DNA of 64,000 bases from Streptomyces sp. NBC_00190 (GTDB taxonomy: Bacteria; Actinomycetota; Actinomycetes; Streptomycetales; Streptomycetaceae), in NCBI RefSeq assembly GCF_036203305.1, contig NZ_CP108131.1:1302001-1366000 (forward strand). The letters run 5' to 3'. This document shows, piece after piece, positions 2,189 to 29,867 of the stretch (position 1 is the stretch's first letter; the number at the start of each line of letters is the position of its first letter). Below the pieces are notes generated by a model. The model was given only the letters and a program-made list of their open reading frames with translations, was not told where the DNA came from and did no database searches. The position numbers and the translations under genes are program-made.

Positions 2189-2483
2189 CCCGCCGCCCCC
2201 GGGTCGGCCCGCGGCCGGTCAGCCGCTCCGAGACCCGCGGTCGCGGTCGCGTCGGCGGTCGGGGAGCAGCCGGGCCGTCCGCTCGCCCACGTGGGCAACA
2301 CCTCGGCCGGGCCGTGGTGGTTGGGCGCGAGAGCGATCACCGCCACCCCGACGTGCCTCTCACCGCGCGCGGAGGCCACGACGACCTGTTCCGGCCGGTC
2401 CACCCCGTTCAGGTTCGATCCGCCCCGCCGGTCCGGGCCGCCGTCCCGGCCTCCGCCCTCACCTCCGCGCTCGACGTCGGCGC

Positions 2484-3833: not shown

Positions 3834-4016
3834 GATGTGCTGCCGCTCCTGATCACCCGGTTTGCTCCGATGCCGGGGAAATCCTACGGCGCGACGCCGC
3901 CTCGCCCCGCTGTGCGAGGATCGGGACTGTCTTTCGCCGTACCCGGCATACGCATACCCCGCGGATGCGGGTGGCGTACCGAAGAGCACAACGTCGCACC
4001 CAAAAGGAGCGTGCCC

Positions 4017-5381
4017 ATGTCCCAGAATCCGATCGCCGAGACCATCGCCTCGCTGATGCCCCGCGCCAAGCAGGAGCTGACCGAGCTGGTGGCCTTCCAG
4101 TCGGTGGCGGACTGGGCGCAGTTCCCCAAGAGCGAGAGCGAGGCGGCCGCGAACTGGGTCGCGGACGCGCTGCGCGTCGAGGGCTTCCAGGACGTGGCGC
4201 TGCTCGACACCCCCGACGGCACCCAGTCGGTGTACGGCTTCCTGCCCGGCCCCGAGGGCGCGCCGACCGTACTGCTCTACGCGCACTACGACGTGCAGCC
4301 GCCCCTGGACGACGCGGCCTGGATCTCCCCCGCCTTCGAGCTGACCGAGCGCGACGGCCGTTGGTACGGTCGCGGCTCCGCCGACTGCAAGGGCGGGTTC
4401 ATCATGCACCTGCTGGCGCTGCGCGCCCTGAAGGCCAACGGCGGCGTGCCGGTGAGCGTGAAGGTGATCGTCGAGGGTTCGGAGGAGCAGGGCACCGGCG
4501 GTCTCCAGCAGTACGCCGAGGCGCACCCGGAGCTGCTGACCGCCGACACCATCGTCATCGGCGACGCGGGCAACTTCCGCCTCGGGCTGCCGACGGTGAC
4601 GGCGACGCTGCGCGGCATGTGCCTGCTCAAGGTGAAGATCGACACGCTGGGCGGCAACCTGCACTCCGGGATGTTCGGCGGCGTCGCCCCCGACGCGCTG
4701 GCCGCGCTGATCCGGGTGCTGGACTCGCTGCGCGCGGCGGACGGTTCGACGACCGTGGACGGGCTGGCCTCGGACGCGGTGTGGGAGGGCCTGCAGTACC
4801 CGGAGACGGACTTCCGCGGCGACGCGAAGGTGCTGGACGGGGTCGAGCTGATCGGCGAGGGCACGATCGCTGACCGGCTGTGGGCCCGTCCGGCCGTGAC
4901 GGTGCTCGGCATCGACTGCCCGCCGGTGGTCGGCGCGACGCCGTCGGTGCACGCGAGCGCCGGCGCGCTGATCAGCCTGCGGGTGCCGCCGGGCGTGGAC
5001 ACCACCGAGGCCGTCAAGCTGCTGGAGGCGCACATGGTGGCGCACACCCCGTGGAAGGCGCGCCTGGAACTGGAGATCGTGGGCCAGGGCCAGCCGTTCC
5101 AGGCGGACACGAACAGTCCGGCGTACGCGTCGATGGCGGCGGCACTGCAGGAGGCGTACCCGGGCGAGGAGATGCAGGTCGCCGGCATGGGCGGCTCGAT
5201 CCCGCTGTGCAACACGCTGACGCAGCTGTACCCGGACGCGGAGATGCTGCTGATCGGGCTGAGCGAGCCGGAGGCGCAGATCCACGCGGTCAACGAGAGC
5301 GTGTCGCCGCAGGAGCTGGAGCGCCTGTCGGTGGCCGAGGCCCTCTTCCTCGTCAACTACGCGGAGTCCAAGCGCGGCTGA
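4017..5381 (+). CDS. M20-family dipeptidase / metallopeptidase
   Basis: This 454-residue zinc exopeptidase has the M20 motif set in order: HYDVQPP near residue 92 (first metal ligand and catalytic Asp), GRGSADCKGG (bridging Asp), EGSEEQGTGG (general-base Glu pair), VIGDAGNF, and the C-terminal ligand in QIHAVNE. The dimerization domain lies between, with NLHSGMFGG. The family hydrolyses dipeptides and related amides in the cytoplasm. The ATG at 4017 has AAGGAG 8 bases upstream. Although the frame stays open far upstream, that part is antisense to the flavoprotein gene and is not coding. The gene is followed by the hairpin array at 5402-5462. Confidence 0.92.
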   Translation: MSQNPIAETIASLMPRAKQELTELVAFQSVADWAQFPKSESEAAANWVADALRVEGFQDVALLDTPDGTQSVYGFLPGPEGAPTVLLYAHYDVQPPLDDAAWISPAFELTERDGRWYGRGSADCKGGFIMHLLALRALKANGGVPVSVKVIVEGSEEQGTGGLQQYAEAHPELLTADTIVIGDAGNFRLGLPTVTATLRGMCLLKVKIDTLGGNLHSGMFGGVAPDALAALIRVLDSLRAADGSTTVDGLASDAVWEGLQYPETDFRGDAKVLDGVELIGEGTIADRLWARPAVTVLGIDCPPVVGATPSVHASAGALISLRVPPGVDTTEAVKLLEAHMVAHTPWKARLELEIVGQGQPFQADTNSPAYASMAAALQEAYPGEEMQVAGMGGSIPLCNTLTQLYPDAEMLLIGLSEPEAQIHAVNESVSPQELERLSVAEALFLVNYAESKRG

Positions 5382-5401
5382 CCCGCCGCGAGTCCGGTCG
5401 T

Positions 5402-5462
5402 ACGCCCAGGGCGCAGTGCGCCCTGGGCGTACTGCGCCCTGGGCGTACTGCGCCCTGGGCGT
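5402..5462 (+). terminator. Multi-state hairpin terminator: one inverted and three direct copies of a 13-base arm
   Basis: The arm at 5402-5414 is exactly complementary to 5418-5430 (GCGCCCTGGGCGT, loop AGT). The same arm recurs at 5434-5446 and 5450-5462, each separated by ACT, with a degenerate fourth copy to about 5475. The first arm can pair with any of three partners. It sits 21 bases after the M20 stop and about 60 bases before the next ATG, so it probably terminates the peptidase transcript. Confidence 0.75.
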
Positions 5463-5520
5463 ACTGCGCTCCGGGTGAACTCGCGTGCGCGGGGCGGGGC
5501 CGGATCCGTACGTTCGCGGC

Positions 5521-6210
5521 ATGGATCTTGTCGAAGTGCTGCCGAACCGGCTCCACATGCTCCGCTTCCCCATCGGCCAGGCGTACGTCTGGCAGGACGG
5601 CGAGGCACTCACCCTGATCGACGCCGGTCACGCCGGGTCCGCCGACGCGATCGAGGGGGCGCTGCGATCACTCGGGCTGATTCCCGAGCGGCTGGAGCGG
5701 ATCGTGCTGACCCACTGCCACCGCGACCACGTCGGTGCCGCCGGTGAGCTCGCCGCCCGCTGGGGCGCGCGGGTGCTCGCGCACCGCCTGGACGCGCCCG
5801 TGATCCGGGGCGAGTCGCCCGTGCCCGAACCGGTACTGCTGGACTGGGAACTCCCCCTGTACGCGCGCGGGCTGACCGTCCCCGAGGCCCCGCCCACCCC
5901 GGTCGACCGGGAGCTGGAGGACGGCGACGCGCTGGGCTTCGGGGACGGGGCGTACGTGGTCCACGCCCCGGGTCATACGGATGGCAGCATCGGCGTCCAT
6001 CTCCCGCGCCACGGCGTGCTGTTCACGGGGGACTGCGTCGCCGCCGTCGGCCCGCTGATGCTGGGCGTCTTCAACGTGGACCGGGCACGGGCGGCCCGGT
6101 CGTTCCGGCGGCTGGCCGCGCTCGCCCCTTCGACGGCCTGCTTCGGACACGGGGATCCGCTGACGGAGGACACCGCGGCGGCCCTCTCCGCGGCCGCCGC
6201 GGCTTCCTGA
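5521..6210 (+). CDS. MBL-fold metallo-hydrolase
   Basis: This 229-residue metallo-beta-lactamase-fold protein has the metal motif THCHRDHVGAA (HxHxDH; residues about 65-72), a later His in HAPGHTDGS (about residue 153), Asp in TGDCVAAVG, and His in CFGHGDP. These supply both metal sites, so the enzyme looks catalytically complete. Such proteins include glyoxalase II-like thioesterases and lactonases; the substrate cannot be deduced. The ATG at 5521 is chosen because the family fold begins directly after it; a start at 5485 lies closer to the upstream hairpin. It is convergent with the ATPase-NUDIX gene, 15 bases away. Confidence 0.88.
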   Translation: MDLVEVLPNRLHMLRFPIGQAYVWQDGEALTLIDAGHAGSADAIEGALRSLGLIPERLERIVLTHCHRDHVGAAGELAARWGARVLAHRLDAPVIRGESPVPEPVLLDWELPLYARGLTVPEAPPTPVDRELEDGDALGFGDGAYVVHAPGHTDGSIGVHLPRHGVLFTGDCVAAVGPLMLGVFNVDRARAARSFRRLAALAPSTACFGHGDPLTEDTAAALSAAAAAS

Positions 6211-6225
6211 TGGACCGGGCCCCGG

Positions 6226-7281
6226 TCAGCCCACGGGGACGCCCGCCTCCAGGTACAGGGGGCGGCCCCGCTCCCGGGCGCGCAGGGCCCAGCGCAGGCG
6301 CTCGTAGCGGTGCCGCGGGAGCAGTCCGGCGGCCTCGTCCTCCGTGACGAAGCGCCAGGCCCGCAGCTCCGGGCCGGGCAGCCGGAGCCGGTCCTGCGCG
6401 CCGTCCGTGAGGCGGCCGCCGTCGAAGAGCAGGCGCAGCCCCCCGTAACCGGGCGGCTGCGGGGGCTCCCAGTCGACGACGAGGAGCCCGGGCGCCCGGT
6501 CCAGTACGAGGCCCAGTTCCTCGGCGACCTCCCGTACGCCCGCGCACCCGGGTGCCTCGCCGGCTTCGACGACGCCGCCCGGGAACTCCCAGCCCGCCTT
6601 GTACGTCGGATCCACCAGCAGCACCCGGTCCTGTTCGTCGAAGAGCAGCACTCCGGACGCCACCGTCTCCCGCGTGGGCTCCGGGGTCTGCACAATGTCG
6701 CAGACCCGGGCCTCCTCGGTGCGCACCGCTTCCGCGATCCGCTCCGCGGTCTCGCGCACGCTCAGGGCGCCGTTGTCGATGACGTGCGCGTCGGCGGTGA
6801 GCCAGCCGAGTGCCTGCTGGTAGACGGGGATGTGGTCGTAGGCCCACTGGCGGACCCGGAGGTCCACGTCCTGCGGCTCGCCCGGCTCCTCCCGCGTCGC
6901 GATCCGCTGTCGAAGGATCGTTTCCTCAGGGGCCAGCAGCACATGGCGCACCGCTATCCGGCGAGCCGCCAGACCGCCGAAGATCTCGTCCCGGTACTCC
7001 TGCCGGAGCAGGGTCATCGGTACGACCAGCACCCCGCCCAGTTCCGCGAGCATCGCCGCCGCCGTGTCCACCACCAGGCGCCGCCAGCTCGGCAGGTCCT
7101 GGTAGTCGGAGACCTCCGCCAGGCGCTTGCGCGGCAGCAGCACGCGCAGCGCGTCGCCGATCAACTCCGGATCGAACAGAGTGCTGTCCGGCAGGATTCC
7201 TGTCAGTTCGCGGGCCGTGCTGGTCTTTCCGGCGCTGAATGTGCCGTTGATCCAGACAATCACGTCTACCCCTCTCCCCAT
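6226..7281 (-). CDS. P-loop kinase-like ATPase fused to a NUDIX hydrolase
   Basis: This two-domain protein has about 351 residues. Residues 1-190 form an AAA/kinase-like P-loop domain with Walker A GTFSAGKTS (13-21), as in shikimate kinase- or zeta-toxin-like nucleotide-binding proteins. Residues about 205-340 are a NUDIX domain with a perfect box: GGVVEAGE, then seven residues, then REVAEELGL. Such a pair could phosphorylate a small molecule and hydrolyse a nucleoside diphosphate derivative, but the substrate is unknown. The ATG at 7281 is the longest start. GTG at 7263, preceded by GAGAGGGG at good spacing, is an equally likely real start and would remove six residues. Confidence 0.82.
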   Translation of the reverse strand: MGRGVDVIVWINGTFSAGKTSTARELTGILPDSTLFDPELIGDALRVLLPRKRLAEVSDYQDLPSWRRLVVDTAAAMLAELGGVLVVPMTLLRQEYRDEIFGGLAARRIAVRHVLLAPEETILRQRIATREEPGEPQDVDLRVRQWAYDHIPVYQQALGWLTADAHVIDNGALSVRETAERIAEAVRTEEARVCDIVQTPEPTRETVASGVLLFDEQDRVLLVDPTYKAGWEFPGGVVEAGEAPGCAGVREVAEELGLVLDRAPGLLVVDWEPPQPPGYGGLRLLFDGGRLTDGAQDRLRLPGPELRAWRFVTEDEAAGLLPRHRYERLRWALRARERGRPLYLEAGVPVG

Positions 7282-7400
7282 GGCTCCGCCGGAGCCCCCA
7301 GTGGCTTGCCCGCCTCACCCTGCCACGGAAACCTCACTATCGGCCGAGTGCATATCCTCAAGGTCACAGCGCCGCCCGATACTCCGGAGGTTTCCCCACC

Positions 7401-8438
7401 GTGCCCATCAGCCGCCGCCCGTCCGACCCCCGTTACGGAAACCGGCCGACCATGAAGGACGTGGCGGCCCGGGCGGGCGTGGGCCTGAAAACGGTGTCCC
7501 GGGTGGTCAACGGTGAGGCCGGCGTCACCCCCGACACCGAGCAGCGGGTCCAAGAGGCCATCGACGCCCTCGGGTTCCGCCGCAACGACAGCGCCCGCGT
7601 CCTGCGCAAGGGCCGAACCGCCACCGTGGGCCTGGTCCTTGAGGACCTCGCCGACCCCTTCTACGGCCCGCTGAGCCGCGCGGTGGAGGAGGTGGCCCGT
7701 GCGCACGGCGCGCTCCTCTTCAACGGCTCCAGCGCCGAGGACCCGGACCGCGAGCGGGAGTTGGCGCTCGCGCTGTGCGCGCGCCGGGTCGACGGGCTGA
7801 TCGTGATCCCGGCCGGCGACGACCACCGCTACCTGGAACCGGAGATCCGGGCGGGCGTGGCCACCGTCTTCGTGGACCGCCCGGCCGGCCGGATCGACGC
7901 GGACGTGGTGCTCTCGGACAACTTCGGCGGCGCCCGGGACGGGGTGGCGCACCTGATCGCGGGCGGCCACCGCCGCATCGGCTTCATCGGCGACCATCCG
8001 CGCATCCACACGGCGGCGGAACGCCTGCGCGGCTACCGCGAGGCGATGGCGGACGCGGGCCTGCCCGTGGCCGAATCCTGGGTCTCCCTCGGCTCCACGG
8101 CGCCCGAGCGGGTCTCCGCGGCGGCCCGGGCGATGCTCGCGGGCCCGGAGGCGGTGTCGGCCGTCTTCGCCGGCAACAACCGCGTGACGGTCACCGTCGT
8201 ACGGGTCCTCGCCGACCGGGAGCACCCCGTGGCCCTGGTCGGCTTCGACGACTTCGAACTGGCCGACATGCTCCGCCCCGGCGTCACCGTGGTCGCCCAG
8301 GACCCGGCGAAGCTGGGCCGGGTGGCCACGGACCGCCTCTTCCAGCGCCTCGCCGGAACCGACCTCCCCCCGACCCGGATCGAACTCCCGACCCGCCTGG
8401 TCCCCCGCGGTTCGGGCGAACTCCCGCCGACTGCCTGA
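7401..8438 (+). CDS. LacI-family transcriptional regulator
   Basis: The protein has 345 residues. The N-terminal helix-turn-helix and hinge (TMKDVAARAGVGLKTVSRVV, then RKGRTATVGLVLEDLADPF) are typical of LacI/GalR repressors. A periplasmic-binding-protein-like effector domain follows to the end (IGFIGDHPRIHTAAERLRGY; VALVGFDDFELADML). The GTG start at 7401 has GGAGG about 10 bases upstream. No sugar operon lies next to it; the neighbours are convergent or divergent, so its target is probably elsewhere or itself. The sugar or other ligand is unknown. A strong terminator (8524-8558) follows. Confidence 0.9.
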   Translation: MPISRRPSDPRYGNRPTMKDVAARAGVGLKTVSRVVNGEAGVTPDTEQRVQEAIDALGFRRNDSARVLRKGRTATVGLVLEDLADPFYGPLSRAVEEVARAHGALLFNGSSAEDPDRERELALALCARRVDGLIVIPAGDDHRYLEPEIRAGVATVFVDRPAGRIDADVVLSDNFGGARDGVAHLIAGGHRRIGFIGDHPRIHTAAERLRGYREAMADAGLPVAESWVSLGSTAPERVSAAARAMLAGPEAVSAVFAGNNRVTVTVVRVLADREHPVALVGFDDFELADMLRPGVTVVAQDPAKLGRVATDRLFQRLAGTDLPPTRIELPTRLVPRGSGELPPTA

Positions 8439-20505: not shown

Positions 20506-21912
20506 TCACGCGGCGGCCCGATCGGCGTTCTCCGCGTTGCCGGCCGTGATGCCCTTGGTCGAAGCGATCACGCTCTTGAGCTTCTTGGCGAGGGCCTCAT
20601 AGAACATGCTGAGCGGAAACTCGTCCGGAAGCACGTCGTCCACGAGCTTGCGCGGAGGCTGCGTCATGTCGAGGGCGTCGGGCCCCTTGGCCCACTTGGA
20701 GCCCGGGTGCGGGGCGAGGTACGTCGAGACCAGCTCGTAGGCCTTGAACCAGTGGACGAGCTTCGGGCGGTCGATGCCGGCCCGGTAGAGGTCCTCGATC
20801 TCGCCGCACAGCTGGTTGGTGACCTGCGGGGCACGCATCCAGTCGATCTTCAGCTTGTTGTCCGTCCAGCGCACGACGTCGTGCTTGTGGAGGTACGCGA
20901 AGAGCAGCTGGCCGCCGAGGCCGTCGTAGTTGCGGTTGCGGTCGCCGGACACCGGGAAGCGGAACATCCGGTCGAAGAGGACGGCGTACTGCACGTCGCG
21001 GCCGTGCTCGTTGCCCTCGGACTCCAGCTTCACGGCCTCCTTGAAGGCGGTGAGGTCGCAGCGCAGCTCCTCCAGGCCGTACATCCAGAACGGCTGGCGC
21101 TGCTTGATCATGAAGGGGTCGAACGGCAGGTCGCCGTGGCTGTGGGTGCGGTCGTGGACCATGTCCCACAGGACGAAGGCCTTCTCGCAGCGCTCCTGGT
21201 CCTCGACCATGCGGGCGATGTCCTCGGGCAGCTCGATGCCGAGGATGTCGACGGCGGCCTCGGTGACCTTGCGGTAGCGGGCGGCCTCACGGTCGCAGAA
21301 GATCCCGCCCCAGGTGAAGCGCTCGGGGGCCTGGCGCACCGCGATGGTCTCCGGGAAGAGCACCGCGGAGTGGGTGTCGTAGCCCGGGGTGAAGTCCTCG
21401 AAGGTGATGCCGAGGAACAGCGGGTTGTCGTACCGGGTGCGCTCCAGCTCGGAGAGCCACTCGGGCCACACCATCTTGAGGACGACGGCCTCGAGGTTGC
21501 GGTCGAGGTTGCCGTTCTGCGTGTACATCGGGAAGACGACCAGGTGCTGGAGCCCGTCGACGCGCTCGGCGGCCGGGTGGAAGGCCAGCAGGGAGTCCAG
21601 GAAGTCCGGCACCTGGAAGCCGTCGGCGGCCCACTTGCGCAGGTCGTCGACGAGCGCCTGGTGGTACGCCGTGGCGTGCGGGAGCAGCGGGGACAGCGTC
21701 TCGACGGCGCGGATCACGCGCCCGACGGCAGCTTCGGCGGTGTGCTGGGCGGGTGCGCCCTCGACCCCGAAGGCGATGGACCCGTCCGCGGACTGCCAGG
21801 GGCGGATCTCCTCCACGGCGGCCTTGAGCTCGGGCCACGCGGGGTGGTCGACCACCCGCGCCCCGGCGGTTATCACGGCACCGCCGACACCCGGCACAAG
21901 AGTTTCCGTCAT
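20506..21912 (-). CDS. DUF6421-family protein
   Basis: This 468-residue cytoplasmic protein belongs to an actinobacterial family without known function. It has no signal peptide or membrane helix. Conserved-looking stretches include DMVHDRTHSHGDLPFDPFMI, which with its His/Asp cluster could bind a metal, and KHDVVRWTDNKLKIDWMRAP. The ATG at 21912 has GGAGGAAGTG upstream. It is the first gene of the operon with the SDR and the threonine-aldolase-like enzyme, so a role with them in amino-acid or small-molecule modification is plausible but not shown. Confidence 0.85.
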   Translation of the reverse strand: MTETLVPGVGGAVITAGARVVDHPAWPELKAAVEEIRPWQSADGSIAFGVEGAPAQHTAEAAVGRVIRAVETLSPLLPHATAYHQALVDDLRKWAADGFQVPDFLDSLLAFHPAAERVDGLQHLVVFPMYTQNGNLDRNLEAVVLKMVWPEWLSELERTRYDNPLFLGITFEDFTPGYDTHSAVLFPETIAVRQAPERFTWGGIFCDREAARYRKVTEAAVDILGIELPEDIARMVEDQERCEKAFVLWDMVHDRTHSHGDLPFDPFMIKQRQPFWMYGLEELRCDLTAFKEAVKLESEGNEHGRDVQYAVLFDRMFRFPVSGDRNRNYDGLGGQLLFAYLHKHDVVRWTDNKLKIDWMRAPQVTNQLCGEIEDLYRAGIDRPKLVHWFKAYELVSTYLAPHPGSKWAKGPDALDMTQPPRKLVDDVLPDEFPLSMFYEALAKKLKSVIASTKGITAGNAENADRAAA

Positions 21913-21993
21913 GTCACTTCCTCCACAGGAGAACCTCACGTCAAGGCAGCGTAAACGTGTGAGGCTCTTCCGCTCAAGTGGTAACTCGGGAAA

Positions 21994-22240
21994 TTATCCT
22001 GCGCGACCCCCTGATTCACCGAAAGTCTTCCCGTTCGTCAGCGTGGAACGGATGGCTCCGCCCAGTCGCGACATGGCCTGTCGAGCCTCCGGCAGCACCC
22101 CGGCCAGCGCCAGGAAGCCGTGGAACATCCCGTTCCGGAAGTCGAGGACCGAAGGAACTCCGCTCTCGCCCAGCCTGCAGTGGTACGCCAGCCCGTCGTC
22201 CCTCAGCGGGTCGCACCCGGCGACGAGGGCGCTTTCGTGC
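21994..22240 (-). pseudogene. Truncated alpha/beta-hydrolase (HSL-type esterase), C-terminal remnant
   Basis: Only the last 80 or so residues remain. They carry the catalytic Asp in VAGCDPLRDDGLAYHCRL and the catalytic His in NGMFHGFLALAGVLPEARQA, the classic C-terminal half of the alpha/beta-hydrolase fold-3 (hormone-sensitive lipase-like) family. The oxyanion HGGG motif and the GDSAGG nucleophile are missing. Similarity stops near 22240, where the stop codon of an unrelated small gene begins, so this is the left breakpoint of the accessory segment. The open frame continues to 22308, but that part is antisense-frame sequence of the neighbour. Confidence 0.75.
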
Positions 22241-22241
22241 G

Positions 22242-22628
22242 TTACGAGGCAAGTTCCTTCTTGATCTGAGCGGCCTCCAGGCCGGCGTCCCGCTTCGGCA
22301 TCGTCCACCGGTAAGCCTTACCCTCCCCGTCGGTGTAGATGAGGATGCCGCCAGCGTGGACGGTGTCAAGGTCGAACACAGCCCCGTCCAGGACGAACGA
22401 TCCCGGCTGCACGGTCCGACCCGCGTTGAACGAGTCCGCGACCACATTGAACGCTTCCCCGTTGCCTTGCGCGATGGCCTGCCCGTCGGGTGCTACCCAG
22501 CTCCAGCCGCCACCGTCGATGGGTGCGACCTGGTCGGCTGCGACCGCGGTAGTTGCGCGCGCCTTGTAGGCAATGAAGGCGAACGTAGCCTTTGTCGGCT
22601 TCGTGACGCTATTCCCAGTGGTGTACAC
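22242..22628 (-). CDS. Hypothetical protein
   Basis: This 128-residue protein is not recognised. The N-terminus is Thr/Ala-rich (VTKPTKATFAFIAYKARATT); the middle reads like a small beta-rich fold (GGGWSWVAPDGQAIAQGNGE; GSFVLDGAVFDLDTVHAGGI; YTDGEGKAYRWTM) with a charged C-terminal helix. There is no clear signal peptide. The GTG at 22628 is the longest start, and a stop codon lies seven codons upstream in the frame; no good ribosome binding site is visible. It lies at the left edge of the accessory segment, downstream of the HD and XRE genes on the same strand but behind a terminator. Confidence 0.5.
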   Translation of the reverse strand: MYTTGNSVTKPTKATFAFIAYKARATTAVAADQVAPIDGGGWSWVAPDGQAIAQGNGEAFNVVADSFNAGRTVQPGSFVLDGAVFDLDTVHAGGILIYTDGEGKAYRWTMPKRDAGLEAAQIKKELAS

Positions 22629-22729
22629 GAGCTGGTCGGGGTGATCTCAAGTCGGCCGGTACCGCCCGCGCCGACTGTCTCCGCGGGCTGCCCGAGCTGG
22701 AGCGCTGCGGCCGGCGGGGCCGACGCGGA

Positions 22730-22759
22730 CCCCCTCTCGGCCTTCAGCCTGGGAGGGGG
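22730..22759 (-). terminator. Terminator after the HD-domain gene
   Basis: CCCCCTC at 22730-22736 pairs with GAGGGGG at 22753-22759, with a partly paired interior, 20 bases beyond the HD gene stop on the minus strand. It separates this gene from 22242-22628. Confidence 0.55.
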
Positions 22760-22779
22760 CCTCTTTCGTGCGTCCTGGG

Positions 22780-23358
22780 TCAGGGCTTCTCGCCGATGGC
22801 CGCACGCAGCCAGTCGAGAGTGCCCTGGCCGAGGAGCTCGTCGGCGAGCCGCTGGCCAGACTCCGTCGTCAGCCGCGCTCGGCTGTTGTCGATCCATCGC
22901 TGCGCAGCCTCGTACCCCTGGGCCTTGTACTCAATGCCCTGGAGCATGCACTCCAGCTTGTCCGCGTCGCGCGCGCAGATCGCCTCCGGCGAGTCCTTCC
23001 CCTCGTACTCGGCGACCAGCTCCTGGATCGCCGACGCGAGGACTTCGGGCATGCCCGCAGTCTGGTCGGCCGTCACCGCCTGCGGGTCGGCGCTCGTCGC
23101 GTACTTCTTCCCGAGGTGGTTGACGTCCCCGGTGCGGGTCTCCTGCGTGTCGTGCCACACGGCGAGGAAGGCGGCGCGCGCGGGGTCGGCGCCTTCCAGC
23201 TTTGCGATGATCGACGCGATGAGCGAGGTGCGCCACGAGTGCTCGGCTACGCTCTCGGGGGTCCTGACGCCAGCCATCCACCAGCCCGTTCGGGCGGTGT
23301 GCTTGAGCGTGCCTGCCTCGTAGAGGAAGCGCGCCACCGCAGACAGGTCGTCAGCCAC
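22780..23358 (-). CDS. HD-domain phosphohydrolase (YfbR/HDDC2-like)
   Basis: This 192-residue HD-superfamily protein has metal ligands His in ESVAEHSWRTSLIA, the HD pair in FLAVWHDTQETRTGDVNH, and a later Asp in CARDADKLECMLQG. The arrangement matches the 5'-deoxynucleotidase-like HD_3 group, which dephosphorylates deoxynucleoside monophosphates. The GTG start at 23358 has AGGAGA six to seven bases upstream. The stop of the XRE regulator lies only 14 bases upstream, so the two are one operon. Its presence in an accessory cassette leaves open a role in nucleotide-based signalling or phage interference, which is speculation. Confidence 0.85.
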   Translation of the reverse strand: MADDLSAVARFLYEAGTLKHTARTGWWMAGVRTPESVAEHSWRTSLIASIIAKLEGADPARAAFLAVWHDTQETRTGDVNHLGKKYATSADPQAVTADQTAGMPEVLASAIQELVAEYEGKDSPEAICARDADKLECMLQGIEYKAQGYEAAQRWIDNSRARLTTESGQRLADELLGQGTLDWLRAAIGEKP

Positions 23359-23372
23359 TATGTCTCTCCTTC

Positions 23373-24491
23373 TCACGCCTCGGCGAGGCGGATCGCGTAC
23401 CAGATACCCTCCAGCTCTCGGCGCGCACGCGTCGAGGCTGTAGTGCTATCCAACAGCACGGGCAGCTGTGCACGCAGCGCGCGGCCGGCGTCTGAGCCGG
23501 TGCGGAGCAGGCCCGGGCGCGCGGCCAGCAGAGCCCACAGAGTGTGCACGTTGAGATCGAAGAAACCGTGCTGCGGCGCGAGGCCGCTGACGAGGTGCTG
23601 AAGCAGCCGGTGCCCGTGCCAGGACATCGTGCCGGGGGCTGCGATGAAGTCGTCGGAAAGCTCGGGGTACACCGACTCCCCAATCCAGTAAGCCCAGTAG
23701 CTCAGGTTGGCCGCCTCCCCAGCCTCGTCATCGTCCAAGGTCGTGGAGATGAAGTGCCGCATCCGGTCTCGGTCTCCCTGCCGTGCAGCCACGGCGGCGA
23801 CGGAGCGGGAGGTGAGCCACTGCGTGAGCCAGTCGGACGACCGCTCGGCCTTCCGCTGCTGGGCCAGCCAGTCGGATGTGTCCGACGCGTCGTCGTAACC
23901 GGCGAGGTACAGGGCCTGCCTGCGTAGAAGGAACTGCCCGTCCTTCTGGGATTCCTCAGCCATGCGCCGCATGTGGCCGAAGAAGCGACGGTGCTCGTCC
24001 CGCGTGAGCTCGGGCCGGCTGGCGGCGGGCCCGCGGCGGGGGCGTGACGGCGCCTGTAAAGCCCGCATGGGTTCGGGGGTGACGCCGTTCAGCGGCCAAG
24101 CGAGCACCTCGACGAGGTCGCGCTGCATGACCCAGGCGCCGAGCGGGCTGTCGCCCGGGGTGCCCTCGTCGTCTAAGGCACTGGCCAGCAGAACGTCGGC
24201 TTCCAGGGCCTTTTCCAGAGCGATGAGCAAGGCGGAGCTGGCGCCCATCCGCATGAGGCGGTGTCGATGCACGAGCATCTGGCCGACGGCGAGGGAGGTA
24301 AGCGGCCGGCGGCCGGTCTCCCAGCCAGCGACCGTGTCCGCTGAAACAGCGAACGCCTCCGCGAGGGTCTCCTGGGTGTGGCCGAGCTGCTCACGAATGA
24401 CGCGGAACAGGTAGCCGGACACTATGCCTCTGCGGACCCGCCGGGGGGCGCCCTGACTGGCGGTCAGGGTAGAAGTCGGGGTGGTGCCCAT
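23373..24491 (-). CDS. XRE-type helix-turn-helix regulator with large C-terminal domain (TTA-containing)
   Basis: This 372-residue protein has an XRE-type helix-turn-helix at about residues 27-80 ([20 protein letters not shown], then [20 protein letters not shown]) and a long alpha-helical C-terminal region rich in Trp and Arg, a layout common in streptomycete regulators next to accessory genes. One leucine codon near residue 106 is TTA (bases 24174-24176), so translation should depend on the bldA tRNA. It is divergent from a row of small genes starting at 24665 and co-transcribed with the HD protein; it likely controls both directions. The length is well above that of simple phage repressors. 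Confidence 0.8.
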
Positions 24492-24565
24492 GACGCTCCC
24501 TCTGCCTAGGCGTGCGTGCCAAGTAACCCGTACTGCCGGTCACTTCGAGCGGATCGGCCTGAAAT

Positions 24566-24606
24566 CTACGCTCGTGGCTGTGGTCACCGGGCGCTCAGCG
24601 TAGCGC
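24566..24606. promoter_or_regulatory. Nested inverted repeats between the XRE gene and the small-gene operon
   Basis: CTACGCT (24566-24572) is repeated inverted as AGCGTAG (24597-24603). The second arm is also part of GCGCT-N6-AGCGC (24591-24606). The position in the 173-base divergent gap suggests an operator for the XRE protein. Confidence 0.35.
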
Positions 24607-24664
24607 CGATGAGTGCCGCGGGAGACCCGCTCGACACCCCCTGACGAGGCTAGGGAGCACCGGC

Positions 24665-24976
24665 ATGTCCAGCAAACGGCCTGATCTGGAACAGGCGGCC
24701 GCCCTCACGGCAACCGCCCTTGTCCCTCTCGGGCGTAAGCCCTCCGAGGTCAAGATCGCCGGTATTACAGACGGGCTCATCGATCAGGAAGTGCTCCTGG
24801 CGGCCGCCGTCGAGCACCTCCCCGGCGGAGCCGTCGCGCGAGCTACCTGGGAAGGCCTCGTCTTCCAGGGCCCTGAGGACACACCGCTGGGAAACTGGGC
24901 GCACTCCCGGGCGCTGGCCCGCACGGTCAGGCGGATGACCGAGATCATGTCGGCCGCGCCCAAGGCAGTCCGATGA
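24665..24976 (+). CDS. Hypothetical protein, first gene of small-gene operon
   Basis: This 103-residue soluble protein is not recognised. It contains ALVPLGRKPSEVKIAGITDG and a C-terminal amphipathic helix (LARTVRRMTEIMSAAPKA). The ATG at 24665 is preceded by GGGAGCACCGG. Its last four bases overlap the start of the next gene (ATGA), the beginning of a chain of coupled small genes divergent from the XRE regulator. Confidence 0.65.
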   Translation: MSSKRPDLEQAAALTATALVPLGRKPSEVKIAGITDGLIDQEVLLAAAVEHLPGGAVARATWEGLVFQGPEDTPLGNWAHSRALARTVRRMTEIMSAAPKAVR

Positions 24977-25179
24977 CCGCGGTAACGAGGCTCTGCCACA
25001 CGGCCCCTCTCCCCCGGGCGCACGGACTGCCCGTAGAGGTCGCCGCTGGCCGAGCGTGCGTAGCGTGCGGACAGCGGCTCACCACCGGCGCGGTCCTGCT
25101 CGGCCGAGCACCGGGCCGTCACGGCGCCCACGACGTGAGCGTCGAGGTATGGGCCTGCCCCGCACCGGAGGGGGCGTAG
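24973..25179 (+). CDS. Hypothetical small protein with CxxC
   Basis: This 68-residue protein is not recognised. It has one CVACG motif in the middle and a C-terminal cysteine (VEVWACPAPEGA), which may form a small metal knuckle. The ATG at 24973 overlaps the previous stop (ATGA) and the TAG stop overlaps the GTG of the next gene (TAGTG), which supports its being translated. Confidence 0.6.
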   Translation: MTAVTRLCHTAPLPRAHGLPVEVAAGRACVACGQRLTTGAVLLGRAPGRHGAHDVSVEVWACPAPEGA

Positions 25180-25454
25180 TGACAGCCATGCGCCGGATGG
25201 ACGAGGAGGCCTTTGACCTCTCACGGCTCCGGATGACGGTCGAGACATCAGCGGCACATCCCGAGGGCGTCTGCACGCTGGAGCACATGTTGTGTGCCGG
25301 CTGCCGGATGCTGGCCCGCATCGCGACCCAGTACGGCGGCCCCATGGCCGACTGCCGGATCTGCTGTTACGCCTGGGCCGTCCAGCATGACCCAGTGCGC
25401 TGCTGGCAGAGAGTGGATGTCTACGGGCCGTGGCTCTCGCTGCGGGCCACGTGA
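25179..25454 (+). CDS. Hypothetical Cys-rich small protein
   Basis: This 91-residue protein has six cysteines, five of them in two groups (CTLEHMLCAGC and CRICC) followed by WAVQHDPVRCW, a pattern suggesting a zinc ribbon or knuckle. The GTG start at 25179 is preceded by GGAGGGGG and overlaps the upstream stop. The final TGA overlaps the GTG of the 28-codon gene at 25451. I do not recognise the family; binding of nucleic acid or protein through zinc is only a guess. Confidence 0.6.
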   Translation: MTAMRRMDEEAFDLSRLRMTVETSAAHPEGVCTLEHMLCAGCRMLARIATQYGGPMADCRICCYAWAVQHDPVRCWQRVDVYGPWLSLRAT

Positions 25455-25537
25455 CCGAGCGCGTGCGTCAGGCCCTGTACCTCGTGATCCTGATCGGCAC
25501 CCTCGCCGTGATCATCATCGGCACCGTCTGCCCCTAA
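25451..25537 (+). CDS. 28-residue single-pass membrane micropeptide
   Basis: The frame GTG...TAA encodes VTERVRQALYLVILIGTLAV followed by IIIGTVCP. It is a short charged head and one continuous hydrophobic helix of about 20 residues ending in a Cys-Pro. The GTG overlaps the TGA of the upstream gene by the four bases GTGA, the coupling pattern used throughout this operon, which is the main reason to believe it. It could be a membrane anchor, a toxin-like peptide or a small regulator of another membrane protein. Nothing in the sequence distinguishes these. Confidence 0.5.
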   Translation: MTERVRQALYLVILIGTLAVIIIGTVCP

Positions 25538-25545
25538 GAGTCCCG

Positions 25546-25579
25546 CCCGGCCGCGTATCTGCCAGGACCCACGGCCGGG
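25546..25579 (+). other. Intergenic hairpin within the small-gene operon
   Basis: CCCGGCCG (25546-25553) pairs with CGGCCGGG (25572-25579), nine bases after the micropeptide stop and before the next gene. It may attenuate or terminate the upstream transcript. Confidence 0.4.
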
Positions 25580-25618
25580 ACGGGTTGCACCACCCCAACG
25601 CAACTACTCGGAGGAATG

Positions 25619-26098
25619 ATGACAACTCCCACTACCCTGGAAGCGTCCGCCCGACACCTGCTTTCGGCAGAGGGCTTCAGCCGCGTCGTACACCTCGTGC
25701 AGCGCGACAACGAGGGCATCGACCTGGCGCTGGCCGAGCGCATTACGGACGAAGCGATCAAGTTCGTGGCGGCGGCCGCGACGGCCACGGGCCGACACCT
25801 GCGCCCCTCCAAGGCCGTGGACATGGGCTGGCATGCGCTCATCCTCCACACGGCCATGTACCGCGGGCTGTGCGCGTCGCTCGGCCGGTTCGTGGACCAC
25901 CGGCCGGAGGGCCCGGAGACCCTGCGCCGCGACGCGGACACCTTGGACCACGCGATGGACGCGATCCGGGGGGCCGGGTACGAGCCGGACGCCTATCTGT
26001 GGGGGCCACTGGCGGACACGGAGATCCACGCCGGGGACTGCATGCACAGCGAGTGCACGGAGGGCGGGTCGGCTTGCGCTGCCCCGCCGATGGCCTGA
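25619..26098 (+). CDS. Glycine-rich-domain-protein-like family protein
   Basis: The protein has about 159 residues. The middle, VDMGWHALILHTAMYRGLCA, followed by GRFVDHRPEGPE, matches the conserved WHxxILHTxxY...C..G..xxHxP pattern of the family annotated as glycine-rich domain-containing protein-like; its function is unknown. The C-terminus adds a Cys/His-rich stretch (HAGDCMHSECTEGGSACAAP). Two ATGs follow GGAGG: 25616 is too close, so 25619 is chosen. It is part of the rightward small-gene row of the accessory segment. Confidence 0.7.
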   Translation: MTTPTTLEASARHLLSAEGFSRVVHLVQRDNEGIDLALAERITDEAIKFVAAAATATGRHLRPSKAVDMGWHALILHTAMYRGLCASLGRFVDHRPEGPETLRRDADTLDHAMDAIRGAGYEPDAYLWGPLADTEIHAGDCMHSECTEGGSACAAPPMA

Positions 26099-26148
26099 CT
26101 CCTCCCGCTCCCCTACAGTCGACTACGTTCCGCGAGGAAGGGGTTGCT

Positions 26149-26367
26149 GTGAGCGAAGAGGCCGGAGGGCCGGAACGGGGAGTGTGGATTGACCCTCGAT
26201 TCCACAGCATGGTTGCGGGCTGGTCCGCGAACCGGGTTGAGCGCCGACCCGGGAGGCGGCCGCGGCGAGTCTGCCCGCATGGGTTCGGGGTGACCGTCAT
26301 GGTCGATCCAGAAACGTGCACGCCCCGTAATGTCCAGTGCGGGACGTGCTACCCGCTTGAGGACTGA
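26149..26367 (+). CDS. Hypothetical small Cys-rich protein
   Basis: This 72-residue protein has a basic stretch (RVERRPGRRPRRVCPHGFGV) and a C-terminal Cys cluster (ETCTPRNVQCGTCYPLED). Four cysteines and one histidine could bind one zinc ion next to a nucleic-acid-binding basic patch. The GTG start at 26149 is preceded by GAGGAAGGGG. It is the last gene of the rightward row and is followed by a hairpin. The family is not recognised. Confidence 0.55.
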   Translation: MSEEAGGPERGVWIDPRFHSMVAGWSANRVERRPGRRPRRVCPHGFGVTVMVDPETCTPRNVQCGTCYPLED

Positions 26368-26382
26368 TTCACAACGACTGCC

Positions 26383-26407
26383 CCGGCCGGAGCCCCCTTC
26401 CGGCCGG
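26383..26407 (+). terminator. Terminator of the small-gene operon
   Basis: CCGGCCGGA (26383-26391) pairs with TCCGGCCGG (26399-26407) across a seven-base loop, 15 bases after the stop at 26367. The rest of the gap to 26571 holds no gene I can support. Confidence 0.65.
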
Positions 26408-26571
26408 AGCTACTCGCGTACGAGGTGCGCGAGGGGGACGGACTAGCTAGGAAGTGTCCTGGCGATCATGACGCGGGCAGCCCGGCGGTCGCCCGCCCCC
26501 ATCTGCCACCGCAGTCTGGCAACCTTGGATGACGCCCAAGCAGCCGGCCAAGGCCCTGCACGTGGGTTGAT

Positions 26572-27066
26572 CTACGAGACCGGCGCTCCTGTCCAGAGGA
26601 AAAATAGAGAAGCGATGCTTCCGTCCTTGTGGAAGGTCACGCGGAACTCCGCAGGTGTGCGTTCCATGCGCAACGGCACCTTGACCGCAGTGAACTCGCC
26701 GAATGCGACGTCCTTGGGATCCCCGTGTGACTGATAGCGTCCGAACTGATTCTGGAAGGTCTTCCATGCCGTCGCGAGGGTGGCTGGGGGCAGTTGTGTA
26801 CGCATCGTCGCATCGAAGCGGGCTGTGGCCGCGGTGAAGTTGCCCTTCACGATGTCGTCGAGCGTCTGAAGGGCGATCCGGTCGTATCGAGTCTGAGCCG
26901 GGGTTGCTGCCGAGGCCGAGCCCGCGACCGTCGTGGTTGCGTGGGCCTGCACCGCAGCCAGCGCGACACCGTTGGCCAGCAACAGCGCGCAGGCCGCCAG
27001 CGTGATGGTTGCCACCGCCTGGACCAGTTGCCGCTTGCTGCTGAGCGTTGTGTCTCTGTCGGACAT
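26572..27066 (-). CDS. Secreted DUF3887-domain protein
   Basis: The protein has about 164 residues. The N-terminal signal peptide or anchor (VQAVATITLAACALLLANGV, ending in VQAHA) is followed by a domain of the DUF3887 type: VKGNFTAATARFDATMRTQL, then TLATAWKTFQNQFGRY, then VPLRMERTPAEFRVTFHKDG. The family is found in exported proteins, often ahead of hydrolase domains, and has no known activity; here it stands alone. ATG at 27066 has GAAGG rather far upstream; ATG at 27111 has GTGGAG closer and would add 15 residues. It lies between the small-gene row and transposon debris. Confidence 0.7.
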   Translation of the reverse strand: MSDRDTTLSSKRQLVQAVATITLAACALLLANGVALAAVQAHATTTVAGSASAATPAQTRYDRIALQTLDDIVKGNFTAATARFDATMRTQLPPATLATAWKTFQNQFGRYQSHGDPKDVAFGEFTAVKVPLRMERTPAEFRVTFHKDGSIASLFFLWTGAPVS

Positions 27067-27504
27067 CAGGACCACGACCTTCTTCAGCCCGGCGGGTCCG
27101 GATACGTCCATCTTGCTCCACTCGCCCTCCCCTCGCCTGCGGGGGAGCGGGACCGCCAGCCGTCCGCCCGGAGGGTGTTTGATCCGTTGTTCGGAGCGGG
27201 AGTCGAAGCGGAGGTGGGCCACTGCGGGGCCTGACAGCGCGGGTCCGTGCGGCGGCGCAAAGCCGGCGTGGGGGGGTTGCGACGGCCCCGGGCTCGCTCA
27301 TTCTGCACCGACTGCCTGCCGAGGCCGGCCCGTTGCCACTCGCGCGTCTCCGCCCGGGCCGCCGGGCCGCAGCCGAGCACCGGACACCCCGACAACCGGT
27401 ACGGCCCTTCGTCTGCCGATGGCCCCGGCGGCGTGGGCCCTGTCCCCGACTGCCCCTCAACTCCCAGCCGGACGGCAACGGCACCGTGTCATTGCCGTCA
27501 CACC

Positions 27505-27690
27505 TCACGCCTCTTTCGCCCCGGGCGCCGTACGCGTCTGTTCCCGGGACGCCCCGTACCCGCGAAGCACCTCCACCAGTAACCCGAGCTGCCGGGCCAG
27601 CCGTCCCACTGCGGCCGGCGGGGCTGCCTTCACCTCGTCCGGTGCGAAGCCCAGCCACGGCAGCGGGCACGCCGACAAGGCCACGCGTTC
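27505..27690 (-). pseudogene. Fragment of a DUF4158-type (Tn3-family) transposase
   Basis: The translated stretch ACPLPWLGFAPDEVKAAPPA, followed by AVGRLARQLGLLVEVLRGYG and ASREQTRT, matches the N-terminal DUF4158 region of Tn3-family transposases (LCTLPWLGFVPDDV...YGRREQTRTDH). After REQTRT the similarity ends and a stop follows at 27505. Upstream sequence to about 27,980 has several frames that break each other. No catalytic DDE region is present. The surrounding interval 27112-28157 holds no intact gene that I can support. Confidence 0.5.
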
Positions 27691-28157
27691 ACGCGAGGGA
27701 CCTGGCGCCGACTTGCTGCACGGCGGTGAAGCTCTCCGCGACCAGGGCCTCCATCGTGGCGTTGGGCGAGGATGTACTGCCAGCGCAGGATGTCGTCCGG
27801 GACGCGCCGGTCCGGCACGCGTCGGAAGGCGGGGCGGGTCGGCGACGTCGATCCGCCCGTCGCCGCGGCGACGGGGCCGAACGGTCCTGCGGCGTCACGT
27901 AATGGCGCAGGCGCAGGACGACTTCGTCCGCATGCCGCCCGGCGGTCGAGTGGCCCAGTCCCGGCCGTGTGGATAGCCATCGGGCCGTGTCAAGTCCCGA
28001 AATTCAGTGTCGTGACGCGAATCGACTGCCCGGGCCTACTTGAGGTTCGGAGCCACACAGAGCGTGCGGCCCCGCCGCCCCATTCGCAGCCCGCTTCGGC
28101 CCATGAACCGACGGGCAGCGACAACCCATACCCCTCTATCAGTGATGGAGAATTCCC

Positions 28158-28775
28158 ATGTCTCGCACATCTCAGACCAAGCGCCTCGTGCTGTTTGCCA
28201 CCTCGACCGCCCTGGCGGCAGGAGGGGCACTGCTACCCTCCAGCGCCTTCGCCACCCCGGCGGAAGGGCATACCAACGCCGTGACCCTGACGGCGGACAG
28301 GCACGGCGACAGCGACAGCGACTACCACAAGAACAAGGGCTACAAGGGCTACAAGGGCAGAGGCAAGGGCAAGGGCAAGGGCAAGCCGAAGCCCATCCAG
28401 AACATGCCGGGCTGCCACTTCTACAAGAGCGAGGTGTACTGCAAGCCGGGTGAGCAGAAGCCGGGCGAGAAGCCGGGTGAGCAGAAGCCGGGCGAGAAGC
28501 CGGCTGAGCAGAAGCCGGGTGAGCAGAAGCCGGGCGAACAGACACCGAAGAAGCCGCCGAAGATCCTCACCAAGACGCCGAAGAAGCCGCCGAAGATCCT
28601 TACTAAGACGCCGCCGAAGGCGATCAGCCAGGACACCGGTGGCGTGGTCGACGGCACTGACAATGCAACCAGCCAGGATACCGGTGGCGTGGTCGACAGC
28701 GCTGACAATACGACCAACCCGGACACCGGTACCAGCACCGACTCCGGAGGCGTAGGCAGTGACGCCGGTTCCTGA
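28158..28775 (+). CDS. Secreted Lys/Pro-rich repeat protein
   Basis: The protein has 205 residues. The signal peptide covers about 1-32 (RLVLFATSTALAAGGALLPS, then SAFAT). A basic Gly/Lys/Tyr stretch follows (KGYKGYKGRGKGKGKGKPKP), then the small Cys pair segment CHFYKSEVYC, about eight pentapeptide units KPGEQ/KPGEK/KPAEQ, two copies of KKPPKILTKTP, and three copies of a QDTGGVVDG-type unit. The ATG at 28158 has GGAG nine bases upstream. Low complexity plus export suggests a surface or matrix protein, perhaps binding polyanions through the basic part. The signal peptide resembles that of 14289-14759. Confidence 0.7.
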   Translation: MSRTSQTKRLVLFATSTALAAGGALLPSSAFATPAEGHTNAVTLTADRHGDSDSDYHKNKGYKGYKGRGKGKGKGKPKPIQNMPGCHFYKSEVYCKPGEQKPGEKPGEQKPGEKPAEQKPGEQKPGEQTPKKPPKILTKTPKKPPKILTKTPPKAISQDTGGVVDGTDNATSQDTGGVVDSADNTTNPDTGTSTDSGGVGSDAGS

Positions 28776-28798
28776 CGACCAGGATTTTGTCCGGTCGA

Positions 28799-28990
28799 TC
28801 ATGTTCGGAGCCCCATGACGAGGGCTGCTGCGTTGCAGTACCGAGGAAGACGTAGCCGCGCTTCTCGTATCGGGTGGCGACGGCTCAAGAGTGCTTGAGC
28901 TTGTCGATGGCCCGTTCGACGGTGTTGCGTCTTGTACCGCTCCTCGCCGAAGCCGGGTGGCCGTCCGCCGCGTGAGCCTTTACGCAGGCG
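28799..28990 (-). pseudogene. Decayed IS5-family transposase, C-terminal fragment
   Basis: On the minus strand the pieces KGSRGGRPPGFGEERYK, then RNTVERAIDKLKHS, then AVATRYEKRGYVFLGTAT, then ALVMGLRT and a stop can be read only by shifting frame twice and passing one in-frame stop. Together they are the standard end of streptomycete IS5-type transposases. The element is a dead remnant; terminal inverted repeats were not identified. It abuts the truncated monooxygenase gene at 29015. Confidence 0.75.
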
Positions 28991-29014
28991 GGCGGCCTGG
29001 CGCGAACCTATGCG

Positions 29015-29203
29015 CTATAAAAACTCCTCGGGGGCGGACATGTGTGCGTACCACTTCAGCGAGTGGTGCTCTACCGCCCAGATCCGGTCGAATCCCATCC
29101 GTTCGGCCAGCACGGCCTGTTCGACGCAGTCGCGGATGACCTGGTGCTCCCGCTCCACGGTCGGGTCGGCCAGCTGGGCTTCGAAGATCACGGAGAATTT
29201 CAC
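29015..29203 (-). pseudogene. Truncated LLM-class flavin-dependent oxidoreductase, N-terminal remnant
   Basis: Sixty-two residues remain: MKFSVIFEAQLADPTVERE, then CVEQAVLAERMGFDRIWAVE, HHSLKWYAHMSAPEEFL. This is the typical start of luciferase-like (LLM) monooxygenases of about 350 residues. The frame stops in the A/T-rich junction with the IS5 remnant (TTTTATAG on the minus strand). The gene is divergent from the PadR regulator at 29253, which probably used to control it. It marks the right breakpoint of the accessory segment. Confidence 0.8.
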
Positions 29204-29252: not shown

Positions 29253-29867
29253 ATGACTAGTAGTCAGAAGACGAAGAAGCAAGAGCTACCGCCGACCGCG
29301 TGGGCGGTTCTCGGTCTGCTCTCCTTCCCGGGGGAGCGCACCGGCTACGAGCTGAAGAAGTGGGCGGACTCCTCACTGCGCTTCTTCTACTGGTCACCGG
29401 CCATCAGCCAGATCTACGCGGAGCTGCGCCGGCTGGAGGAGCTGGGTTACGCGGCCTCCGCGCGCTCGGGGCCCGAGGAGGCGCGGGCCAAGCGCCGCTA
29501 CGCCATCACCGACGCCGGGCGCGAGGCCCTGGCCGGCTGGGCCGCCGACACCGCCGAGGCCGGTCCCCCGGTGCTCAAGCACGGGCTGCTGCTGCGAGTC
29601 TGGCTCGGGCACCTCGCCGAGCCGGAGCGGCTGCGCGCGATGGTCGGCGAACACATGGAGCGCACCCGGGCCGAACTGGCCGCCGTACGGGAGGCGATGG
29701 AGCACGCGGCCGAGGTTCCGCAATGGGCCTTCCCCGCCCTCGCGCTGCGCTGGAGCGAGCGGCAGCACCTGGCGGAACTGGAGCTCGCACAGGCCCTCCT
29801 GCACGACCTGGCCGACCTGGCCGCCGACCGCGGGGAACCCGCTCCGGCCACCGTCACCGAGGCCTGA
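29253..29867 (+). CDS. PadR-family transcriptional regulator
   Basis: The protein has 204 residues. The N-terminal winged helix is of the PadR type (LPPTAWAVLGLLSFPGERTG; YELKKWADSSLRFFYWSPAI; SQIYAELRRLEELGY, with the wing residues KRRYAITDAGREAL). A C-terminal helical domain for dimerization follows. The ATG at 29253 is preceded by TAGGAAT and overlaps a perfect palindrome (29254-29266). PadR proteins usually repress a divergent enzyme gene; here that gene, the LLM monooxygenase, is broken, so the regulator may have lost its target. Confidence 0.9.
   Translation: MTSSQKTKKQELPPTAWAVLGLLSFPGERTGYELKKWADSSLRFFYWSPAISQIYAELRRLEELGYAASARSGPEEARAKRRYAITDAGREALAGWAADTAEAGPPVLKHGLLLRVWLGHLAEPERLRAMVGEHMERTRAELAAVREAMEHAAEVPQWAFPALALRWSERQHLAELELAQALLHDLADLAADRGEPAPATVTEA
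29254..29266. promoter_or_regulatory. Palindrome over the PadR start codon
   Basis: TGACTA-G-TAGTCA is a perfect inverted repeat that begins within the ATG. It lies 51-63 bases upstream of the divergent LLM start and could be the PadR autoregulatory site. Confidence 0.4.

Follow-up and report, generated by a model that had tools for sequence, protein, structure and literature searches.

The window analysed here is a stretch of 64,000 nucleotides from Streptomyces sp. NBC_00190 (NZ_CP108131.1, positions 1,302,001 to 1,366,000 of the forward strand), to which all coordinates refer unless stated otherwise. At the locus in question, the tail of an alpha/beta-hydrolase gene and the head of an LLM monooxygenase gene lie on either side of a block of other DNA, discussed below as a probable prophage relic, and are in turn flanked by intact genes for a DUF6421 protein and a PadR regulator. 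The block holds a broken lipoprotein gene, an overlapping pair of genes for an HD-domain protein and an XRE-type regulator (HD-XRE), several small open reading frames (ORFs), a DUF3887 protein gene, a tandem-repeat ORF and transposase debris (Table 1). A preliminary description of this DNA, made without database searches, had taken the two fragments for the ends of an ancestral operon whose middle had been replaced by a foreign cassette, a replacement it linked to the transposase debris.

Table 1. Features of the locus (coordinates in the window).
Feature	Coordinates	Strand	Basis or remark
DUF6421 gene, intact left neighbour	20506..21939	-	Pfam DUF6421, 739 bits
Hydrolase fragment, last 77 codons including stop	21994..22224	-	Abhydrolase_3; alignment to G070 stops at 22224
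Left junction, deletion end; terminator hairpin reduced to its 3' arm	22225..22241		Comparison with L189, L105
Lipoprotein pseudogene	22242..22720 (in-frame part 22242-22628)	-	84-85% to two G094 loci, 70% to a G057 locus
HD_3 / YfbR-like protein, 198 aa	22780..23376	-	Pfam; phrog_7076 dATP triphosphohydrolase, E 3.8e-9
XRE-type regulator, 372 aa, overlapping the HD gene	23373..24491	-	Pfam HTH_31, HTH_3
Small ORF, DUF6415-like	24665..24976	+	21.7 bits, under the 27.5 cut-off; 31% to the same-position ORF in the G294 prophage
Small ORF related to Piccadilly gp27	24973..25179	+	52% over 52 aa; DNA match in 14 Streptomyces phage records
Small ORF, 91 aa	25179..25454	+	No family; 55% over 60 aa in L192
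Conserved non-coding stretch	25541..25597		88% over 58 bp with the att end of the G189 prophage
160-aa ORF related to Kromp gp33	25616..26098	+	44%; relatives in G294, G204, G266 loci
DUF3887 protein gene	26572..27222	-	Pfam
Tn3-transposase / ATP-binding-protein debris	27583..27816		Matches such stretches on actinobacterial plasmids
Tandem-repeat ORF, putative secreted protein	28158..28775	+	Repeats; no Pfam family; no phage match
IS5-family transposase C-terminal remnant with internal stop	28787..29001	-	81-87% to 14 copies
Phage arm of relic attR (putative)	29002..29026		16 of 22 bases equal the G189 attR arm next to the common CTC core
LLM monooxygenase fragment, first 59 codons, starting at the crossover	29027..29203	-	Bac_luciferase
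PadR regulator (start predicted)	29253..29867	+	Pfam PadR, Vir_act_alpha_C

A genus-wide search covered 295 Streptomyces genomes, and the corresponding stretches of relatives were fetched for comparison. In the relatives the gene order is DUF6421 / hydrolase–LLM monooxygenase / PadR–GDPD, without interruption; in G070 as in others, the LLM and hydrolase genes are adjacent, facing PadR and beside DUF6421. G070, whose flanks align with those of the window at 92% and 87% identity, has the hydrolase gene directly adjoining the LLM gene, and according to our own reading of the ORF coordinates the two appear to overlap by about 4 bases. Absent from the window are 1,751 bp of this locus (G070 stretch positions 2134-3884), comprising the N-terminal part of the hydrolase and the C-terminal part of LLM. 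The missing parts were not found elsewhere in the window's genome, where the best matches, the fragments aside, showed 33% identity for LLM and 45% for the hydrolase. One of the genus searches listed 63 places; in the loci built for the best 30 of these 63, the LLM gene is full or near-full length (at least 359 of 374 residues) in 28 and cut in 2, namely the window and Streptomyces sp. NBC_00249 (G189).

Alignment of the relatives, the check proposed in the preliminary description, hence returned the uninterrupted LLM-hydrolase pair beside PadR and DUF6421 that it had predicted. The pair is broken here, with about 6.8 kb of other DNA replacing part of it, and a plus-strand PadR gene does face the minus-strand LLM fragment; neither the same two fragments with other intact neighbours nor a lack of any neighbourhood between hydrolase and LLM was seen. 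The extents of the fragments needed correction. The hydrolase piece is C-terminal and on the minus strand as described, but represents about the last fifth rather than a third of the gene and ends at 22224, some 16 bases short of the 22240 given; the LLM piece is likewise real, but its 62 residues resolve into 59 native codons followed by three foreign ones before the stop of the 62-aa ORF. The GC contrast, also proposed as a check, is present (68.5% for 22228-29001 versus 71.7% and 72.6% in the flanks) but too weak to carry weight. In three relatives (G012, G055 and G087; L036, L100, L101), which are all three of the short-gap relatives aligned, the hydrolase is gone between DUF6421 and a whole LLM gene with no insertion present; since LLM is whole in them, the hydrolase has also been lost without insertion.

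In NBC_00249, the LLM gene is split by a 44.3-kb prophage (NZ_JAPEMV010000006.1, about 125.5-169.9 kb). The insert starts with a serine-integrase gene about 50 bp from the crossover (Resolvase and Recombinase domains; phrog_95), and is followed by genes for terminase, portal, major head, tape measure and endolysin; the last part before LLM resumes holds genes for an XRE regulator and a radical SAM protein together with small ORFs. Between its two junctions and the unoccupied G070 site, the sequence exactly in common is CTC; 15 bp duplicated at the junctions were considered as the att core, a reading that was rejected, as only CTC is exact and the remainder a partial resemblance. In inverted orientation, the phage arm of one side resembles that of the other, which is a known property of serine-integrase sites; inverted repeats of this type are described for the prophage Samy (PMC12924846). 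That G189 might have the left break of the window was also considered and discarded, as its hydrolase gene runs on. Integrases related to that of G189 (42-52% identity) are present in eight further genomes, in none of which an LLM match lies beside them; the site is therefore specific to the G189 integrase within the sample. On contig C102 of G204 (L181-L183), about 51 kb separates a serine integrase, 51% identical to the G189 one, from an ORF related to the 160-aa ORF of the window; the two are possibly the ends of one prophage.

LLM homology in the window ends at 29027, the very base at which the NBC_00249 prophage crosses over. The 25 bp between this point and the IS5 remnant (29002-29026) are neither IS5 nor LLM sequence. 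Outside the CTC core they agree with the attR phage arm of G189 at 16 of 22 bases, while the best of 2,476 other 22-mers preceding CTC in the window (both strands) reached 13 of 22. Judged from its sequence, the right edge has the appearance of a relic attR: the junction falls at an integrase attachment site, on this side only, with crossover and arm common to the NBC_00249 prophage. An att pattern occurs with at most 2 mismatches in 46 of the 295 genomes, and matches without a mismatch are confined to G189 and the genome of the window, counts that lend no independent support as the pattern was built from these two, and a reversed control pattern also yields matches. Three stretches were retrieved from genome contigs with a longer pattern, namely NBC_00249 and two metagenome-assembled genomes of other phyla, the matches of which were not used; nor were the 32 stretches found with the att pattern in IMG/VR taken as evidence. 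Compared with G070, the LLM fragment shows 12 synonymous and 0 nonsynonymous changes in its 59 codons, and this part therefore appears to have been under selection until recently, or to be so still for another reason.

At the left edge, the window matches two loci of G094 (L105, L189) at 84-85% DNA identity and one locus of G057 at 70%, starting from about 22227. Both G094 loci have a whole terminator hairpin before the same lipoprotein gene; in the window, the 3' arm of this hairpin is fused to the hydrolase tail. The lipoprotein gene itself is broken, with 128 aa in frame versus the full 205 aa in G094. L189 carries an Amidase_2 endolysin gene on one side of the lipoprotein gene and a phage-type XRE gene on the other, the latter being 76% identical to the XRE gene of the G189 prophage. 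The left edge is a deletion end and contains no attL, as is expected of a relic but not of an intact prophage. Relative to G070, the hydrolase fragment has accumulated 16 nonsynonymous changes in 77 codons, while six intact homologues show 13 to 36; dating the break by hydrolase decay was dropped, as the fragment is not visibly decaying faster than intact homologues. The related phage-type end in L189 (G094:C11:55000-70000) is situated beside genes that we take to resemble comM and yraN, which are preceded by a PCMT-type methyltransferase gene.

The nature of this edge bears on the possibility that the hydrolase was partly lost earlier in the lineage, independently of any insertion. The three short-gap relatives mentioned above, with LLM whole and hydrolase missing, agree with such an inherited lesion; the hydrolase tail of the window, however, is longer than theirs and fused directly to a phage-type terminator, and one deletion therefore accounts for both. 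We regard an inherited lesion as very improbable, the least probable of the readings weighed here.

The two edges together also bear on the transposase debris, which is indeed found both inside the block (27583-27816) and near its right end (28787-29001). The remnant at the right end is assigned to the IS5 family by way of an intact copy elsewhere that is IS5 according to NCBIfam. Its homology stops at 29001 in comparison with 12 of 14 copies with loci and at 28999 in comparison with the other two, so that, as described, an IS5 remnant is present but the LLM fragment does not end at it. Insertion of the cassette by IS5 was rejected, as other DNA follows after 29001. More generally, an insertion sequence (IS) or transposon might have brought the genes, with adjacent deletions breaking the host genes and the att likeness being due to chance; in its favour, IS5 and Tn3 remnants are present near the right end. 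Yet the IS homology stops 25 bp before LLM, the LLM break coincides with the crossover of a whole prophage, and the left edge falls in a terminator and yielded no IS; IS copies at both edges, as in a composite element, are not present, the only one being the IS5 remnant near the right edge, 25 bp off. Such an IS-borne cassette is improbable in our estimation, and the link of the replacement with the transposase debris is not upheld, the right edge coinciding with the attachment site of a whole prophage in another species and bearing 25 bp that resemble a phage arm, and the left edge being a deletion end in a terminator.

Inside the block, phage-related genes are found in a phage-like order. 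The HD and XRE genes overlap, and both frames are open. In a prophage locus of G294 (L186), an Amidase_2 endolysin gene is followed by an HD-XRE pair on the opposite strand, and the locus continues in the order of the window with an ORF 31% similar to the one at 24665 and then a 41-42% relative of the 160-aa ORF. Piccadilly gp27 and Kromp gp33, to which two of the small ORFs are related, both sit between endolysin and integrase in their phages. Six loci with HD relatives were found in IMG/VR; in five of them, at 75-85% identity, the HD gene always has an XRE partner, and lysis-gene matches are close by in four of these five, while the sixth, at 30% identity, is without an XRE match. When IMG/VR was scanned for the 160-aa ORF, the G189 integrase and the G094 lipoprotein, none of the three gave a confirmed relative. 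The conserved stretch at 25541-25597 (L096 7417-7474) precedes different cargo, namely the 160-aa ORF in the window and the radical SAM gene in the G189 prophage.

HD-XRE pairs from the genus search were sampled at 29 loci (window 22780-24491; L152-L180), which form 24 groups by HD-side flank DNA with few near lysis genes, and the pair is therefore apparently mobile and not phage-confined. Going by the domains, HD-XRE would represent a nucleotide-cleaving enzyme with its regulator and, speculatively, perhaps a lysogenic-conversion or exclusion trait. No PADLOC model matches the pair, and the sole PADLOC match in the block is a weak one for DUF3887. A paralogue of the DUF3887 gene (26578-27167), at 84%, is located elsewhere in this genome (G000:C1:8162993-8163581), and several short tandem repeats with units of 6 to 45 bp are contained within one ORF at 28333-28730.

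Taken together, these data lead us to consider 22228-29026 very probably a prophage relic that keeps att-proximal accessory genes and contains IS5 and Tn3 debris. Several observations weigh against this. The stretch 26441-28786 has no tie to phage at all, DUF3887 being paralogous, the repeat ORF lacking a phage match and 27583-27816 being Tn3 and ATP-binding-protein debris. The DNA-level match to phage records amounts to 120 bp of the block, the phage collection contains no match to the window XRE, and most of the small window ORFs are without a PHROG match. HD-XRE occurs outside phages as well, a lysis-gene match within 1,450 bp being present in three of the 29 loci. For the att arm, a short sequence, the comparison involved a single prophage. 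Finally, there is no integrase or structural phage gene among the window ORFs scanned, and hence no intact prophage; at E 1e-60 no integrase match was obtained in the window's own genome either.

The missing structural genes would also suit a small serine-integrase mobile element devoid of phage genes, whose integrase was later deleted, comparable to that at the phiJoe site of S. coelicolor; elements of this type occupy attB sites in Streptomyces, as PMC5311408 reports. Such an element is unlikely to lie at this locus, though marginally less so than the IS-borne cassette, as a whole phage sits at the same crossover in NBC_00249 and the kept genes are arranged as in the accessory end of a phage. 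No family for the replication and DNA-transfer genes of an actinomycete integrative conjugative element was found among the ORFs scanned.

As to how the prophage relic may have arisen, prophage integration followed by a large deletion fits both edges better than a single replacement. Recombination between the attP of a temperate serine-integrase phage and an attB within the LLM gene would have interrupted this gene after codon 59, which is also where it is split in NBC_00249; crossover and arm are those seen at the right edge. A large deletion, the end-points of which are visible in the alignments, would then have removed attL, the integrase, the structural and lysis genes, the C-terminal part of LLM and the N-terminal part of the hydrolase, leaving the hydrolase tail fused to a terminator that belongs to a phage-type lipoprotein gene. 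Its extent may have been about 40 kb, if the lost phage resembled the NBC_00249 prophage. The remaining block would correspond to the stretch between lysis genes and attachment site in such phages. The IS5 and Tn3 pieces present near attR would have entered and decayed there, where the DUF3887 and repeat-protein genes are also located; this order of events is the one we infer. Because no attL and no integrase were found, the relic should not be able to excise by itself. The LLM and hydrolase genes would both be dead in this genome, leaving PadR without the targets it faces.

A further insertion in LLM is present in L105 (G094:C321; positions 2063-7578), where a decayed phage-like insertion with a GH25 endolysin and the lipoprotein gene replaces the N-terminal part of LLM and the hydrolase is missing too. 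The crossover of this insertion is lost; use of the same LLM attB would be plausible. It is conceivable, but on balance doubtful, that an undescribed family of Streptomyces serine integrases repeatedly uses the LLM gene as its attB (NBC_00249, the window and G094) and, at the same time, that HD-XRE is kept for host protection, for instance through nucleotide depletion during phage infection.

Serine integrases with attB sites in coding genes are well known, as are prophage relics, and the history recorded at this locus is clear but rather ordinary. It does provide an example, at base resolution, of a conserved enzyme gene pair lost by phage integration and subsequent deletion. The LLM viral insertion site may be undescribed: an attB in an LLM monooxygenase gene was not found in the literature searched, a coverage to which the supplementary attB table of PMC12924846 does not belong. 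Together with the integrase of the NBC_00249 prophage, the LLM attB could become an additional integration tool for Streptomyces. HD-XRE is marked as an accessory module that recurs in Streptomyces prophages as well as standing alone, whereby its role becomes testable.

Among known systems, the NBC_00249 prophage is the closest, sharing the host gene, the crossover, a similar attR phage arm and short collinear matches at the att end; it differs in being whole, with integrase and structural genes, in its intact hydrolase neighbour and in its other cargo (an XRE of another type, radical SAM). The phages Piccadilly and Kromp have related small ORFs between endolysin and integrase, but the relationship is confined to single genes, and the Kromp integrase is of the tyrosine type. 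At the phiJoe site, PMC5311408 describes a coding-gene attB for a serine integrase that is occupied, as in the SCO2603 element, by elements of varying size and content; the target there is a radical SAM gene, hit near its end, rather than LLM, and the integrase is still present. Samy, likewise a serine-integrase Streptomyces prophage with its attB within an enzyme gene, targets another radical SAM gene and is active, according to PMC12924846. For grounded prophages, PMC6379469 describes how loss of the recombinase or of an att site strands a prophage, with deletions and insertions following; these were exemplified on E. coli, whereas the deletion in the window also took parts of two host genes.

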